From: Caldilineaceae bacterium
GTDB lineage: Bacteria; Chloroflexota; Anaerolineae; Caldilineales; Caldilineaceae
NCBI GenBank assembly: GCA_026989655.1
Contig: JALSIX010000134.1
Span: 1-41,557, forward strand
DNA: 41,557 nucleotides
Direction: 5' to 3'
Shown here: piece by piece, positions 4,427 to 41,557 of the stretch
Layout: every line of letters starts with the position of its first letter
Position numbering within the stretch: the first letter of the stretch is position 1
Notes under the pieces: generated by a model
What the model was told of the DNA's origin: nothing
The model's database searches: none
The model's input: the letters and a program-made list of their open reading frames with translations, nothing else
Position numbers and translations under genes: made by a program

Positions 4427-5302
4427 TCACTCCCGATGGTAGGGCTGGCCCAGAGCCTGGGGCCGGGTGGCCCCCCAGCGGGCACGGAACCAGTCCGTGG
4501 AGATGAACACCAGCACCAACACGGTCACCGCGAAGGGGACCATGCGCCAGATATAGCGGGAGAAGAGGCCCGGAAGCAGCAGCTCCGGGTTCAGGGAGAG
4601 TTGCCAGAGCAGGCCGAAGAGCAGGGCACCGCCGAAGAGGAGGAAGGGGTTCCACATGGAGAAGAAGACCAGGGCCAAGGAGATGAAGCCCCATCCCATG
4701 AGGAAGTTGTAGTTCCAGACCGGGTTGTAGTAGAGCGCGTAGAGCGCGCCCGCGAAGCCGGCCAGCATCCCTCCGACCACCACGCACAGGTAGCGCAGGC
4801 GGGCGACGTGGATGCCCGACACCTCGGCCACGTCAGGGGTCTCGCCCACGGAGCGAATGGCCAGGCCCAGGCTGGTCTTGGTGAGGACGAACCAGATCCC
4901 CACCGCCAGGAGCACGGCCACGTAGAAGAAGGGCGAGATGCCCAACACCGTGGGCAGCCGCTCCATTCCCAGAGGGCCTGTGAAAGGGCTGCCGATGTAG
5001 GTGGTCATGCCGAAGCTGAAGATCCAGATCCCCATGCCGCTGACCACCTGGTCCACGCCCAGGGATATGGAGAAGACCCCGTGCAACAGGCCCAACAGGC
5101 CCCCGACCAACACGCCCACCAGAAAGCCCACCAGATAGCTCTCGGTGGTCTGGGCGGCGACGAAGCCCAGGGTGGCCCCGAAGAGCATGATGCCCTCCAG
5201 GCCCACGTTGAGGATGCCACCCCGCTGGTTCACCAGCTCGCCCAGGCCGGCAAAGGTGAAGATCATGGCCGCTTCCAGGCTGCGCAGGATAAAGGGAAGC
5301 AC
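4427..5302 (-). CDS. BMP-type (nucleoside) ABC transporter permease, second subunit
   Basis: 291 residues, one of two membrane subunits of a BMP-type importer (BPD_transp_2 fold, as in YufQ/NupQ and RnsD). About eight to nine hydrophobic helices are visible. The family signatures are AGLGELVNQRGGILNVGLEGIM near the N-terminus and the cytoplasmic coupling segment TSLGLAIRSVGETPDVAEVSG. The start is GTG 5302, three bases after the stop of the upstream permease gene, which implies translational coupling. It is the last gene of the operon and is followed by a strong terminator. Nucleoside specificity is inferred from the family and not shown by the sequence. Confidence 0.9.
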   Translation of the reverse strand: MLPFILRSLEAAMIFTFAGLGELVNQRGGILNVGLEGIMLFGATLGFVAAQTTESYLVGFLVGVLVGGLLGLLHGVFSISLGVDQVVSGMGIWIFSFGMTTYIGSPFTGPLGMERLPTVLGISPFFYVAVLLAVGIWFVLTKTSLGLAIRSVGETPDVAEVSGIHVARLRYLCVVVGGMLAGFAGALYALYYNPVWNYNFLMGWGFISLALVFFSMWNPFLLFGGALLFGLLWQLSLNPELLLPGLFSRYIWRMVPFAVTVLVLVFISTDWFRARWGATRPQALGQPYHRE

Positions 5303-5305
5303 GGT

Positions 5306-6469
5306 TCACTCTCCTCCATAGCTCGCCAGGTCCGAGGGGGCCGGTGTGCCGCTGGGCCTGGGTTCGGGCGCCAGGGGCTCCACCACGATCCGGTAGCGGT
5401 AGAAGAACTGGAAGGCCACCAGCGTGATCATGAGCACGCCCATCAGCGCGTAGTCCACGCCGAAGCCCAGGTGCAGCTTCCCCTGGGCATACCGTCCGCC
5501 GATGGACAGACCGCCGAAGAGGAGGGCCACCGGCAGGGTGGCCAGGGGGTTGCCCAGGGCAATGAGCCCGCAGATGATGCCGAAGAAGGCCAGGTCGCCG
5601 AACTCCCCGTAGTTCCGGGGGATCTTGTAGACCCCGGGCACCGCGGCGAAGTAGTGGTAGGCGGCCAGGCCCGCGATCCCGCCGCCGAGGAGGAAGACCC
5701 ACAGGGAGATCCGGGTGGTGTCCATCCCCGCGTAGCGGGCGGCCTTGGAGCTGAGGCCCGCGGCCCGGATCTGGTAGCCCAGGCTGGTGCGCGCGAAGAG
5801 GAACTCCAGGGCCCCGGCCAACACCAGGACGAAGAGGATGGTGAAGGGCATGCCCAGGACCGTGGGCGCCCGCAGGGAGGTAGGCAGGGTGAAGCCCTCG
5901 CCCCGTCCGCCCACGTTCATGAAGGGGCCGCCGTCCTTGATCATGTGGGAGACCAGCCAGAAGGCGATGAAGTTCAACATCATGGTGACCACGATCTCGT
6001 TCACGTCCCAGCGGCCCTTCAGATATCCGGCGATGCCCCCCATGAGGGCCCCGCCCAGGGCCGCGGCCAGGACCATCAGGGGAAGGACCAGGGCCGGGTT
6101 CAGGGGCACGTCCTTGGAGACCTTGCCCCCGAACGCGTAGACCACCGCGTAGGCCGCCAGGCCGCCCATGTAGATCTGGCCGGTCATGCCGATGTTCCAC
6201 TCTCCGGCCCGGAAAGGCACGATGAACGCGTAGGTGGAGAGGGCCAGGAAGATGAACCGGCTCATGGTCAAGGGGATGCCGTTCGCGTTGAAGAACGCGT
6301 AGCGGAAGATCTCCTGGTAGGCCTGCATGGGGCTTGCGCCCGCGAAGAGGAAGACAAAGCCGAACAGGAACAGCCCCACCCCCAGGGCCAACACCGAGAA
6401 GAGGGCCGCCTCCCAGCCGGGCAGGGTGGCCCGGCGCAGGATGCGCACCCGATAGCCGCCGACCGTCAT
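5306..6469 (-). CDS. BMP-type (nucleoside) ABC transporter permease, first subunit
   Basis: 387 residues, the partner permease (YufP/NupP-like) of the importer. It has an N-terminal helix, a periplasmic region typical of this subunit, the motif GEWNIGMTGQIYMGGLAA, and the coupling loop TSLGYQIRAAGLSSKAARYAG. Its ATG overlaps the stop of the ATPase gene by four bases (ATGA), so the subunits are translationally coupled. The C-terminal 30 residues are Pro-rich and polar, probably cytoplasmic. Related to the subunit at 34945-36078 but clearly diverged. Confidence 0.9.
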   Translation of the reverse strand: MTVGGYRVRILRRATLPGWEAALFSVLALGVGLFLFGFVFLFAGASPMQAYQEIFRYAFFNANGIPLTMSRFIFLALSTYAFIVPFRAGEWNIGMTGQIYMGGLAAYAVVYAFGGKVSKDVPLNPALVLPLMVLAAALGGALMGGIAGYLKGRWDVNEIVVTMMLNFIAFWLVSHMIKDGGPFMNVGGRGEGFTLPTSLRAPTVLGMPFTILFVLVLAGALEFLFARTSLGYQIRAAGLSSKAARYAGMDTTRISLWVFLLGGGIAGLAAYHYFAAVPGVYKIPRNYGEFGDLAFFGIICGLIALGNPLATLPVALLFGGLSIGGRYAQGKLHLGFGVDYALMGVLMITLVAFQFFYRYRIVVEPLAPEPRPSGTPAPSDLASYGGE

Positions 6470-8195: not shown

Positions 8196-9494
8196 TCACT
8201 CCAGGATCTGGACACCCGCCAGGTCGAAGTTGAACTGGGACAGGAGCCACTCGTCCGAGGGCATCTCGTTGGCCGGCTTGACCACGGTGCCGGCCTCGGG
8301 CACGGGCAGCCCCTCCAGCTCCAGGCCGGTACCGTTGCTCACGAACTCATGGGCGAAGAAGGGATCCCACACCCCCTTCATCATCTGGTCCCGGCGGGCC
8401 GCCACCAGGTCCAGGATCTCCTGGGGCACCAGCTCCCGGGCCGCGGGGCTGATGGCATCCACCCCCACCTTGCCGTCGTTCATGATGTCCACCGTGGCCA
8501 CCCGGGTGCCGTCGGCCAGGACCATGAAGTCGTCCATGCCCAGGTAGAGGACGTTCACCGGCTGGCTGTCCTGGGCCAGCCAGTCCTTCACCATCCGATC
8601 GTAGATCACCTCCCAGCGGGTGTCAAAGGAGATGGCCACCGTGTTCGTGTCGGACCAGCCATACTCGCCCACGATGTCCATGTCCTTGCCCACATACCAG
8701 ATGCCGGCCTCCGCGGCCACATCCAGGGGCGAACCCGAGTCGGTCTGCTGGGTGAGCACGTCCACCCCGTACTGGTCGATCAGGGTCTTGGCGATGTCCC
8801 GCTCCTCCGAGGGGTTGTACCAGTCTCCCACGTACTTGACGTAGATGGTCACCTCCTTGCCCAGCAGCGCCGCGGCATCCTGGACCCCCAGGGTGAAGCC
8901 GGCCTGGCGTCGGATCACCTGCACCGAGGGGAACGCGGAGACCACGCCGATGCTCCCCGACTGGGTCAGGGCGCCGGCCACCAACCCCTCCAGGTAGAGC
9001 GCCTGGTACTGCCGGGGGAAGAAGCGGATGAAGTTCCGCTTGGTGGTCAGGTCGCTGGCGATGACCGCGCCGAAGTAGACGTCCGGGTACTTGTCCGCCA
9101 GCTCCTCCAGGGGGAGCCCCATGAACTCCGCGTTGCCGATGACGATGTCCGCACCCTCCGCGATGAGCTCCTCGGCAAAGGGCACCGCACTGTCCGGCCC
9201 CACCTCTTCCCGGTAGATGTAGTCCACCGTGGGGTACTTCTCCGCCACACGGTTGCCGGCCCGGTGGTGGGCCCCCGACCAGGTGGTGCCCTCGATGATG
9301 CTGAAATGCTCGATGGCCAGGGTGACCTGGGTACCCACCGCCTGGGCGGCCTCGCCGGCCTCGGGTGCCGCCGGTTCCGGCTGCGGCGCAGCGGGCTGGA
9401 CCGCGCACATGGTGGTGAAGAGCATCACCCCCACCAGGGCCAACAGGGTCGGGATCCGGCGCAACAACGGGTGGGAGCGGAGGAGACGTCGCAT
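8196..9494 (-). CDS. BMP family substrate-binding lipoprotein of the ABC importer
   Basis: 432 residues of the BMP/Med/PnrA-like family that captures purine or pyrimidine nucleosides (or related ligands) outside the membrane. The N-terminus has a basic start (MRRLLRSHPLLRR), a hydrophobic core and a Cys in FTTMC, then an Ala/Pro/Glu-rich tether, consistent with a lipoprotein although Met at -1 is atypical. The mature part shows EEGADIVIGNAEFMG-like and QTDSGSPLDVAAEAGIWYVG segments typical of the family. ATG 9494 has AAAGGAG 7 nt upstream. It is the first gene of the operon and has its own strong promoter about 75 bp upstream. Confidence 0.93.
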   Translation of the reverse strand: MRRLLRSHPLLRRIPTLLALVGVMLFTTMCAVQPAAPQPEPAAPEAGEAAQAVGTQVTLAIEHFSIIEGTTWSGAHHRAGNRVAEKYPTVDYIYREEVGPDSAVPFAEELIAEGADIVIGNAEFMGLPLEELADKYPDVYFGAVIASDLTTKRNFIRFFPRQYQALYLEGLVAGALTQSGSIGVVSAFPSVQVIRRQAGFTLGVQDAAALLGKEVTIYVKYVGDWYNPSEERDIAKTLIDQYGVDVLTQQTDSGSPLDVAAEAGIWYVGKDMDIVGEYGWSDTNTVAISFDTRWEVIYDRMVKDWLAQDSQPVNVLYLGMDDFMVLADGTRVATVDIMNDGKVGVDAISPAARELVPQEILDLVAARRDQMMKGVWDPFFAHEFVSNGTGLELEGLPVPEAGTVVKPANEMPSDEWLLSQFNFDLAGVQILE

Positions 9495-9575
9495 AGGCGA
9501 ACTCCTTTCGTTGAGTGGAAACGGTTGGCTACCGAGAACACTTTGGGGGAAGGACATGGACCAGGTGGTGCCCAT

Positions 9576-9703: not shown

Positions 9704-9772
9704 CGTCTCCGGGGCTCGGTGCTGGGCGCACCGAGTTCCGGACAGATCGAACATAGAGAACAACGTCAGCAG

Positions 9773-9873
9773 TTCACGAACTCGTAGCGGAGTCGGCATC
9801 CGAGGATGCCGACTCCAGAGGGGCGATGCCGCATCGGAGGATGCTCACTCCTCCGCTTGGCTAAAATCGTGAA
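9773..9873. repeat. REP/BIME-like composite repeat with TTCACGA ends
   Basis: The element is bounded by TTCACGA (9773-9779) and its inverse TCGTGAA (9867-9873). Its left unit has GTAG (9784-9787) just before a near-perfect hairpin: GGAGTCGGCATCC (9789-9801) pairs with GGATGCCGACTCC (9804-9816) around a two-base loop. The right unit, inverted, carries a related CGGAGG..GCATC block. The inverted right unit (9873-9840) matches 41387-41420 at 29 of 34 positions, and all differences are transitions. GTAG followed by a hairpin resembles REP elements mobilised by RAYT transposases. No such transposase is present here, so the class is an inference. Confidence 0.6.
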
Positions 9874-9940
9874 TGACTGAAGTAACGTATACAGAGTAAT
9901 AGAATAGTGTAGGATGTGAAGGCGGAGTGTCTGGATCGGC

Positions 9941-39678: not shown

Positions 39679-41139
39679 TCACTGTGGGTCCGTCCCGTCG
39701 GGCCCGCCGGCCTGGGCAGCCGGGGAGGGCTCCTCGGCCTCCTCCACCAGGGGAGATCGTCCGTGGGGCCGGGCCGGCACCCCGTACACCAGGGTCTCTG
39801 GAGGCACATCTCGGGTCACCACCGAGCCCGCGCCCGTGTGGGCCCTGCGCCCCAGATGTACCGGCGCGACCAGCAGGGTGCCGCTGCCCAGAAAGACCTC
39901 CTCCTCCAGCACGGTGCGGTGTTTGTGAGCCCCGTCGTAGTTGCAGGTGATGGTCCCCGCGCCGATGTTCACGTTCGGCCCCACGGTGGCATCGCCGACA
40001 TAGCTGAAGTGGCCCATCTTCACGCCCGGTCCCAGGTAGCTGTTCTTCACCTCGCCGAAGTTGCCCATGTGCACCCCTTCGCCCAGGTGGGCGCCGGGGC
40101 GCAGGTGGCTGAAGGGGCCGATCTCGCTCCCGGCGTCCATCCGGGCCGCCTCCAGCACGGAGTAGGTCACCCGACAGCGGTCCGCGACCACGGTGTCCAC
40201 CAGCCGGCTGTGGGGGCCGATGACGCAGTCCGCGCCGATGTGGGTCGCGCCCTCCAGGTGGCAGCCGGGCAGGATGACCGTGTCCTGGCCGATGGTCACC
40301 GTGTCGTCGATGTAGGTGCTCTCCGGGTCCACCAGGGTGACGCCGGCCAGCATGTGGCGCTCGTTGATGCGACGGCGCAGGATCCGGGCCGCCTGGGCCA
40401 GATGCAGCCGGTTGTTGACGCCGTGGACCTCCTCCGGGTCGGCCGACATGGCCAGGATGGCTCGCCCCTGGTCTGCCGCCATGCCCACCAGGTCGGTCAG
40501 GTAGTACTCGCCCTGGACGCTGGGCCGGAGGCGGGACAGGTTCTCCCACAGCCACTCCGCGTCGAAACAGTAGATGCCGGCGTTCAGCTCCCGAAGGGCG
40601 AGCTGCTCGGGCGTGCAGTCCGCCTCTTCCACCACGGCCCGCACCTGCCCCTGGGAATCCCGGACCACCCGGCCAAAGCCCTGGGGATCCGGCCGTTCGA
40701 CGGTCAACATGGCCAGGGCAGGCCGCTGCTCCCGATGGGCCTCGAACAGGCTCCGCAGCGCCTGCAAGGTGGTCCTCTGGAGCAGGGGCATGTCCGCGTA
40801 GAGGACGATGACCTGGGCCACCTGGCCCTCCAGCACGGCCTGGGCCTGCATCACCGCGTGGCCCGTGCCCAGCATCTCGGGTTGGACCACGTACTCCACC
40901 TGGTCGCCCAGGGCAGCCCGGACCGCCCGCGCGCCGTGGCCCACCACCAGGACCGGCGGCCGATCCGAGACCGCGCGGGCCGTGTCCACAGCCCACGCCA
41001 CCATGGGGCGGCCTGCCAGCCGGTGCAACACCTTGGGGAGCTTGGAACGCATGCGTGTGCCGTAGCCCGCGGCCAGGACCACGGTGGCCGTCCGACGGGC
41101 TGAGGAGGAACTGGGATCCGCGGAGGTGCGCTCGGCCAT
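39679..41139 (-). CDS. glmU: Bifunctional GlmU (glucosamine-1-phosphate acetyltransferase / GlcNAc-1-P uridylyltransferase)
   Basis: 486 residues making UDP-GlcNAc for peptidoglycan in two steps. The N-terminal uridylyltransferase domain has LAAGYGTRMRSKLPKVLH, LGTGHAVMQA, YADMPLL and GEYYLTDLV. The C-terminal left-handed beta-helix acetyltransferase shows hexapeptide repeats and FSHLRPGAHLGEGVHMGNFG, then NIGAGTITCNYDGAHKHRT. An extra acidic, Gly/Pro-rich tail follows the usual end. ATG 41139 has GAGG about 8 nt upstream; GTG 41154 is an alternative. A terminator-like hairpin ends less than 20 nt before the start. It is the first gene of the glmU-CNNM-cdd group. Confidence 0.95.
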   Translation of the reverse strand: MAERTSADPSSSSARRTATVVLAAGYGTRMRSKLPKVLHRLAGRPMVAWAVDTARAVSDRPPVLVVGHGARAVRAALGDQVEYVVQPEMLGTGHAVMQAQAVLEGQVAQVIVLYADMPLLQRTTLQALRSLFEAHREQRPALAMLTVERPDPQGFGRVVRDSQGQVRAVVEEADCTPEQLALRELNAGIYCFDAEWLWENLSRLRPSVQGEYYLTDLVGMAADQGRAILAMSADPEEVHGVNNRLHLAQAARILRRRINERHMLAGVTLVDPESTYIDDTVTIGQDTVILPGCHLEGATHIGADCVIGPHSRLVDTVVADRCRVTYSVLEAARMDAGSEIGPFSHLRPGAHLGEGVHMGNFGEVKNSYLGPGVKMGHFSYVGDATVGPNVNIGAGTITCNYDGAHKHRTVLEEEVFLGSGTLLVAPVHLGRRAHTGAGSVVTRDVPPETLVYGVPARPHGRSPLVEEAEEPSPAAQAGGPDGTDPQ

Positions 41140-41155
41140 GGAAAGCCTCAACACA

Positions 41156-41200: not shown

Positions 41201-41386
41201 CTGCGCGTCGAACAACTCGGTTGGAATTGGAAGGAGGTTCACACAGAGAATGCCGGCCCGCTTCCTGTGCCGGCCTCATACTAGGTGGGCGGTCGTCCAT
41301 GGAGGAGATCTGTGCAGTGAACCCGTACCTCGGATATCCAGATAGATGAAAGGGATCCACGGAATGGATCGGAGGATAACCAGTAA

Positions 41387-41420
41387 TTCACGATTTTAGC
41401 CGAACGGAGGGGCGGGCATC
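41387..41420 (+). repeat. Second copy of the TTCACGA repeat unit
   Basis: TTCACGATTTTAGCC followed by a CGGAGG..GCATC block, matching the inverted right unit at 9840-9873 at 29 of 34 positions with only transition differences. No inverted partner unit is found in the remaining 137 bases. The surrounding non-coding stretch 41201-41557 otherwise shows only small imperfect hairpins and no gene. Confidence 0.6.
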
Positions 41421-41557
41421 ATCCTCAGATCACGGTCTGGAATCCGTCCAGAGCATGTCCACGCCCTCGTTCCGTAAGCCGCTGTCGTGTGTGGGGGTGG
41501 TGTTCAGGGGGTGTGGGGATATGGGCAAGCCCACTTTCAAGGGGGTTGGCAGCGGTC

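Follow-up and report, generated by a model that had tools for sequence, protein, structure and literature searches.

The repeat at 9767–9879 of the window (the whole stretch of 41,557 nucleotides analysed here, contig C134 of the Caldilineaceae genome G000) is very probably a non-autonomous MITE with ISH3-type ends, spread in trans by an ISH3-like DDE transposase and enclosing a REPIN that belongs to a RAYT system. Taken alone, each half is of a known kind: one a MITE of an IS family, the other a RAYT-associated REPIN. The evidence comes from the window itself, from further copies gathered by sequence search across the 4.09 Mb and 150 contigs of G000, and from related genomes that hold the same ends or the same core.

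Direct comparison bears out what the sequence-only reading had noticed first: the reverse complement of 9840–9873 and the stretch at 41387–41420 share 29 of 34 bases, and all five differences are transitions. This shared end is not a chance match, with TTCACGATTTTAGCC occurring twice in the window free of mismatches against a mean of 0.20 matches in shuffled sequence with up to three mismatches allowed. The span first proposed, 9773–9873, folds far more strongly than its shuffles (z = -5.0 and -6.2) and does contain two inverted hairpin units, as had been described, each headed by GGAG (Table 1). It proved slightly short, however: because the flanks of copies stay alike for six further bases per side, the terminal repeats gain six bases each and the unit becomes 113 bp long, with 13-bp terminal inverted repeats, CAGCAGTTCACGA / CAGTAATTCACGA. 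The copy at 9767–9879 sits past the start of a gene for a PnrA/Bmp-type substrate-binding protein (8196–9575, minus strand). The second copy, beyond the start of a nucleotidyltransferase/hexapeptide gene (39679–41154, minus strand), matches the right end well over its first ~45 bp, aligns only with gaps thereafter and folds no better than shuffles.

Table 1. Positions of the putative MITE, its parts and its decayed second copy in the window.
Feature	Position	Strand	Basis
Whole non-autonomous element, probable ISH3-type MITE with REP-pair core	9767..9879 (113 bp)	+	End-to-end alignment to genome consensus, score 198; ~45 copies share ends
Left terminal inverted repeat CAGCAGTTCACGA	9767..9779	+	Transposase-bearing elements of relatives have same end motif
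Right terminal inverted repeat, here CAGTCATTCACGA; consensus CAGTAATTCACGATTTTAGCC	9867..9879	-	Common ends of copies
REPIN-like core: two inverted GGAG-headed hairpin units and spacer	9789..9851	+	Free-standing or other-shell core in other Chloroflexota
Left REP unit GGAGTCGGCATC-CGAG-GATGCCGA; hairpin extends to 12-bp stem	9789..9812	+	Sequence; fold; covariation of unit across genomes
Right REP unit GGAGTGAGCATC-CTCC-GATGCGGC on minus strand	9828..9851	-	Sequence; covariation across genomes
Left 5-bp flank AACGT, probable target duplication	9762..9766	+	End-pair flank comparison
Right AACGT, shifted by AAGT (9880-9883)	9884..9888	+	Flank sequence
Decayed second copy; right end 41381-41401 intact, rest degenerate	41381..41484	-	Alignment to consensus

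The suspicion that these loci belong to a dispersed family is amply confirmed. Searching G000 with the 101-bp query returned 40 places at E <= 1e-24, 39 of which cover 90–100% of the query, and we estimate about 45 complete copies plus a handful of fragments, far above the floor of five further copies that the sequence-only reading had set. Most copies are 112–116 bp long, with variants of 78–139 bp. Short, gene-less, multicopy and bounded by terminal inverted repeats, the unit has the attributes of a MITE. Some copies at contig ends share both flanks (C113:67-200 with C133:8900-9033, and the end of C71 with the start of C122), which suggests assembly duplicates, strain variation or segmental duplication; some of them may be one locus assembled twice.

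Among 50 end pairs in G000, a set that includes a few spurious pairings, 21 are bordered by perfect 5-bp duplications and 13 more by duplications with a one-base difference; two pairs agree at 6 bp and none at 3, 4, 7, 8 or 9 bp. When the flanks were re-paired at random 10,000 times, perfect matches averaged 1.0 and never exceeded 6. The duplicated target follows the consensus ANNNT in most copies. Because the 5-bp duplications are exact, we attribute the copies to transposition, and the duplications strongly indicate an ISH3-like enzyme as the one that last moved them. The duplication of the window copy itself appears to have decayed, since its right-hand AACGT is displaced by 4 bp.

Published ISH3 elements have ends beginning CRGT, span 1225–1500 bp and make duplications of 4–5 bp, usually 5, bounded by A and T (PMC2266710). 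Judged from sequence, agreement with this family in ends, duplication length and target rule appears good; the right end, CAGT, fits the published start, whereas the left end is CAGC in G000, and many relatives have CAGT at both. Elements with the same ends are mostly gene-less in relatives too. One of 785 bp in G005, bordered at either end by ATTGT, codes for the N-terminal half of a transposase, and relatives of that transposase in G022, G052 and G057 lie inside elements of 1263–1307 bp with ends CAGTANWTCACGA. Two of these three are bordered by perfect duplications of 5 bp (AAACT in one, AGTAT in the other); the third begins at a contig end. The 388-aa protein of G022 matches the NCBIfam ISH3 model over the profile length (E 1.2e-52, 179 bits, short of the curated cut-off of 225), contains a Pfam DDE domain and has the motif Y-x2-R-x3-E-x3-R. 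It is because, in relatives, these ends bracket ISH3-family transposase genes that we read the 113-bp unit as an ISH3-type MITE and not as a BIME. The tie to this parent consists of the 13–17 bp end sequence, the duplication length and the target rule: we found no relative of the ISH3-type transposase in G000, no intact ISH3 transposase in G000 or in the relatives carrying the REPIN-cored MITE, and no autonomous element in G000, where the listed ends pair only over short distances.

Within these ends, the core is an inverted pair of GGAG-headed hairpins, which on its sequence appears REPIN-like with a variant head. The GGAG head is invariant in 17 of 17 aligned units, and the 8-bp stem of the REP unit covaries, with two-sided changes in 18 cells where shuffles gave 5.4, and a score of 0.338 against 0.115. 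The sequence-only reading had taken GTAG as the REP head. That tetranucleotide belongs to the left flank, outside the hairpin unit, and relatives lack it in their versions of the element (TTTCGACGC, TTTTGACGC, TTTCGGTGC); since it is not conserved, we reject it as a head in favour of GGAG. The core therefore lacks the canonical GT[AG]G head, and we file it as REP-like with a variant head because noncanonical REP heads are known (PMC6006769).

Units of the core type also adjoin RAYT genes. A protein of G032 matches the NCBIfam RAYT model NF047646 with 128.7 bits (cut-off 80), and its gene lies between an array of five units and a single inverted unit. The array (G032:C64, L116:1024-1262) comprises five head-to-tail repeats of 51–52 bp, with one REP unit each, directly adjoining the gene. 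Relatives of this RAYT, 60–74% identical, occur in G000 (C6:25774-26301), G020, G038, SJ142, BJ8 and CFX4. GGAG-headed units of the same hairpin plan adjoin the RAYT gene in all seven genomes, on both sides in six of them, and the stem varies with compensation. The units stand on both sides in inverted orientation in G032, SJ142, BJ8, G038 and G000 (the last with its own type); in G020 they stand on both sides with a variant stem, and in CFX4 on one side. Y1 genes of these genomes that are more distantly related had no GGAG units alongside.

The sequence-only reading also called for a search for a RAYT gene, and G000 does hold one, flanked by REP units of the same GGAG head and hairpin plan. 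Its units, GGAGTGCGCATNCTCNNATGCGCA, number four at the gene and about three elsewhere, and they differ from the pair in the MITE. Another Y1 gene of G000, on C147, was considered as the RAYT and rejected: the IS200 model gives it 64.8 bits (cut-off 55), it reaches only 22 of the 80 bits for RAYT, and its neighbouring hairpins have another sequence. Tandem G+C-rich hairpins (GCCGGGGGATGATTCCCCCGGCTAC and similar) precede this IS200-type gene at ~5300-5640 of the contig (L172:800-1140), perhaps a second, unrelated REP family.

A resident RAYT flanked by GGAG-headed REPs, together with the hairpin pair and the extragenic placement described below, is what one would look for if the repeat were a plain REP/BIME family spread by that RAYT, with the outer TTCACGA as part of the BIME. 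We consider this unlikely. The 5-bp duplications fall sharply outside CAG...CTG, in relatives unrelated interiors and transposase genes lie within these ends, and the RAYT of G000 has REPs of a different type; moreover, the MITE's REP pair was not found outside its shell in G000 at the sensitivity used. The REP/RAYT reading offered at the outset therefore holds for the core, whose units flank a clade of RAYT genes, and fails for the unit that spreads, which with its 13-bp terminal inverted repeats, its duplications and the genes that relatives carry between its ends appears to be an ISH3-type MITE and not itself a REP or BIME.

The converse simplification, an ordinary ISH3 MITE whose interior resembles REPs through convergence on short palindromes, is quite improbable. 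MITEs often contain internal hairpins, it is true, and the ISH3-shell MITEs of G014 have another hairpin interior. Against convergence, the 21-bp unit GGAGNNNGCATCCTCAGATGC occurs in 14 of the 61 genomes searched, with no match to a reversed control pattern in any of the 61, and an exact inverted pair of it is present in 112 stretches of a collection of bacterial and archaeal genomes. The pair-bearing records among the matches listed are Chloroflexota-type MAGs (Chloroflexi, Anaerolineae, Caldilineaceae, Litorilinea and Dehalococcoidia), along with 'bacterium RI_153' (G020). In G032, SJ142 and BJ8, it is this unit that stands beside the RAYT gene.

Stop-to-stop frames being uninformative in a G+C-rich genome, placement was assessed by codon usage trained on the long frames of G000. 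Coding signal in one frame on both sides of the insertion site was seen for 1 of 38 testable copies, against 70% of random points; the other 37 are extragenic (Fisher p about 2e-18), in line with the intergenic bias that had been foreseen. Purifying selection that removes genic insertions would be expected to produce such a bias as well. That the repeat is instead retained as an RNA element with a regulatory or terminator role, its spread reflecting selection for function at gene ends, is highly improbable, for all its very stable fold on both strands and its extragenic placement, given the exact duplications that mark transposition, the alternative source of the bias, and an Rfam scan of the window that returned no match. 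A tRNA scan of the window likewise gave nothing. Copies at single sites may nonetheless have a secondary role.

The same core recurs in several settings. In some genomes, for example SJ142, NAT123 and Bin_103, the paired core has no recognisable terminal repeats. ISH3-type shells with the core occur in G000, G013, G020, G030 and G032 with a shared layout of 22 bp, core and 29 bp; because the layout is much the same, and those aligned are 73–81% identical to the G000 consensus, we take these shells as one lineage. Other shells have other ends. Among those of CAGTAGATCGAA type (BJ8, CFX4, CFX8, ACE_CHL11), 6 of 12 pairs show perfect duplications of 5 bp, whereas 10-bp duplications, with one mismatch allowed, border CAATGTCATTAAGTTAAG shells (G020, G030) in 11 of 18 and CAATACCATTCAAATAAG shells (G005, G011) in 5 of 6. 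The different duplication lengths lead us to conclude that different transposases carried the core; for the CAATGTCATTAAGTTAAG and CAATACCATTCAAATAAG shells, a length of 10 bp points to an IS4-like family. For the CTAGTGTCCCGTCAACG shell in G011 no duplication length emerged, the loose pattern having paired spurious sites.

G020 (RI_153) holds more than 50 ends per strand of the CAATGTCATTAAGTTAAG shell with 10-bp duplications, one example being C21:47222-47333. In G011, near-identical CTAGTGTCCCGTCAACG...ACACTAG elements with the same REP core (L213, L217, L221-L224, L226 and L232, the last with two in tandem) look like a recent burst. ISH3-type MITEs of G014 (L136:169-260, L154:304-393, L156:318-409, L160:3327-3396 and others) have 5-bp duplications and a different interior hairpin pair, built on GGTCCGTGACC; hairpins similar to this type, GGGTCACGGACCCGGC, stand free next to the core in G011 (L216, L227). 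A third interior is found in an ISH3-type shell of G005 (C44, L138:334-435), where it is a long palindrome, GCGAAGCCGC...GCGGCTTCGC, with GTTTT on both sides.

From these observations a two-stage history for the window element can be proposed. The most likely agent is an ISH3-like DDE transposase that acted in trans and that can no longer be detected in G000. It would have recognised the CAGYARTTCACGA ends, cut at CAG, moved the whole 113-bp unit between genes and duplicated 5 bp (ANNNT); from the viewpoint of that enzyme, the REPIN would be cargo. The REP pair would have been gained earlier, either by RAYT-mediated insertion into the shell or by the shell closing round the pair. We favour insertion of the core as a unit because one core recurs in unrelated shells, although we saw no pair of sites, one filled and one empty, that differed by just the core. 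More broadly, REPINs of Caldilineaceae-like Chloroflexota may repeatedly enter unrelated MITEs, with RAYT placing the pair and the DDE transposase of the shell amplifying it, a generalisation that we advance tentatively and hold at a little under an even chance.

The usual account of REP spread looks only at RAYT. Here, amplification of about 45-fold has taken place inside the ends of another transposon class: free units of the RAYT's own type number about three in G000, against some 45 sites for the MITE-borne REP pair. The same pair in shells with 5-bp and with 10-bp duplications makes a second route of REP dissemination testable, and shells that have the pair and shells that lack it are available as natural sets. 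If RAYT does place and DDE transposases amplify, a REPIN could persist after its own RAYT had ceased to be active. The findings also place ISH3-type ends in an abundant bacterial MITE family. We found no reports in the open-licence literature of ISH3 MITEs or of REPINs inside DDE MITE shells.

Each component nevertheless has recognisable counterparts. The ISH3 family (De Palmenaer et al. 2008, PMC2266710), which that survey found only in archaea, resembles the present system in its 5-bp, A/T-bounded duplications, in the CAGT of the right end and of relatives, and in full-length relatives of 1.26–1.31 kb whose transposase has Y-x2-R-x3-E-x3-R; the present element differs in being 113 bp long, gene-less and bacterial, with CAGC at its left end. 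REPINs and RAYTs (Bertels and Rainey 2011, PMC3116915; Nunvar et al. 2010, PMC2817692) share the inverted hairpin doublet and a unit that flanks the RAYT gene, but the head here is GGAG and not GT[AG]G, and DDE transposon ends, with the target duplications they produce, surround the core. Atypical REPs of TnpA-REP subclasses (PMC6006769) are alike in pairing a REP-flanked Y1 gene with units that lack the GT[AG]G head. REP-TIR composites and TIRtrons (Di Nocera et al. 2013, PMC3733652) likewise join REPs, many times over, to unrelated sequence, be it stem-loops or terminal repeats; their TIRs flank Y1 genes, whereas here the ends belong to DDE transposons that make duplications of 5 or 10 bp. 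Finally, insertion sequences found within REPs (PMC1525189) also place DDE elements and REPs in physical nesting, although the order is reversed in the present case, with the REP pair lying inside the transposon ends.
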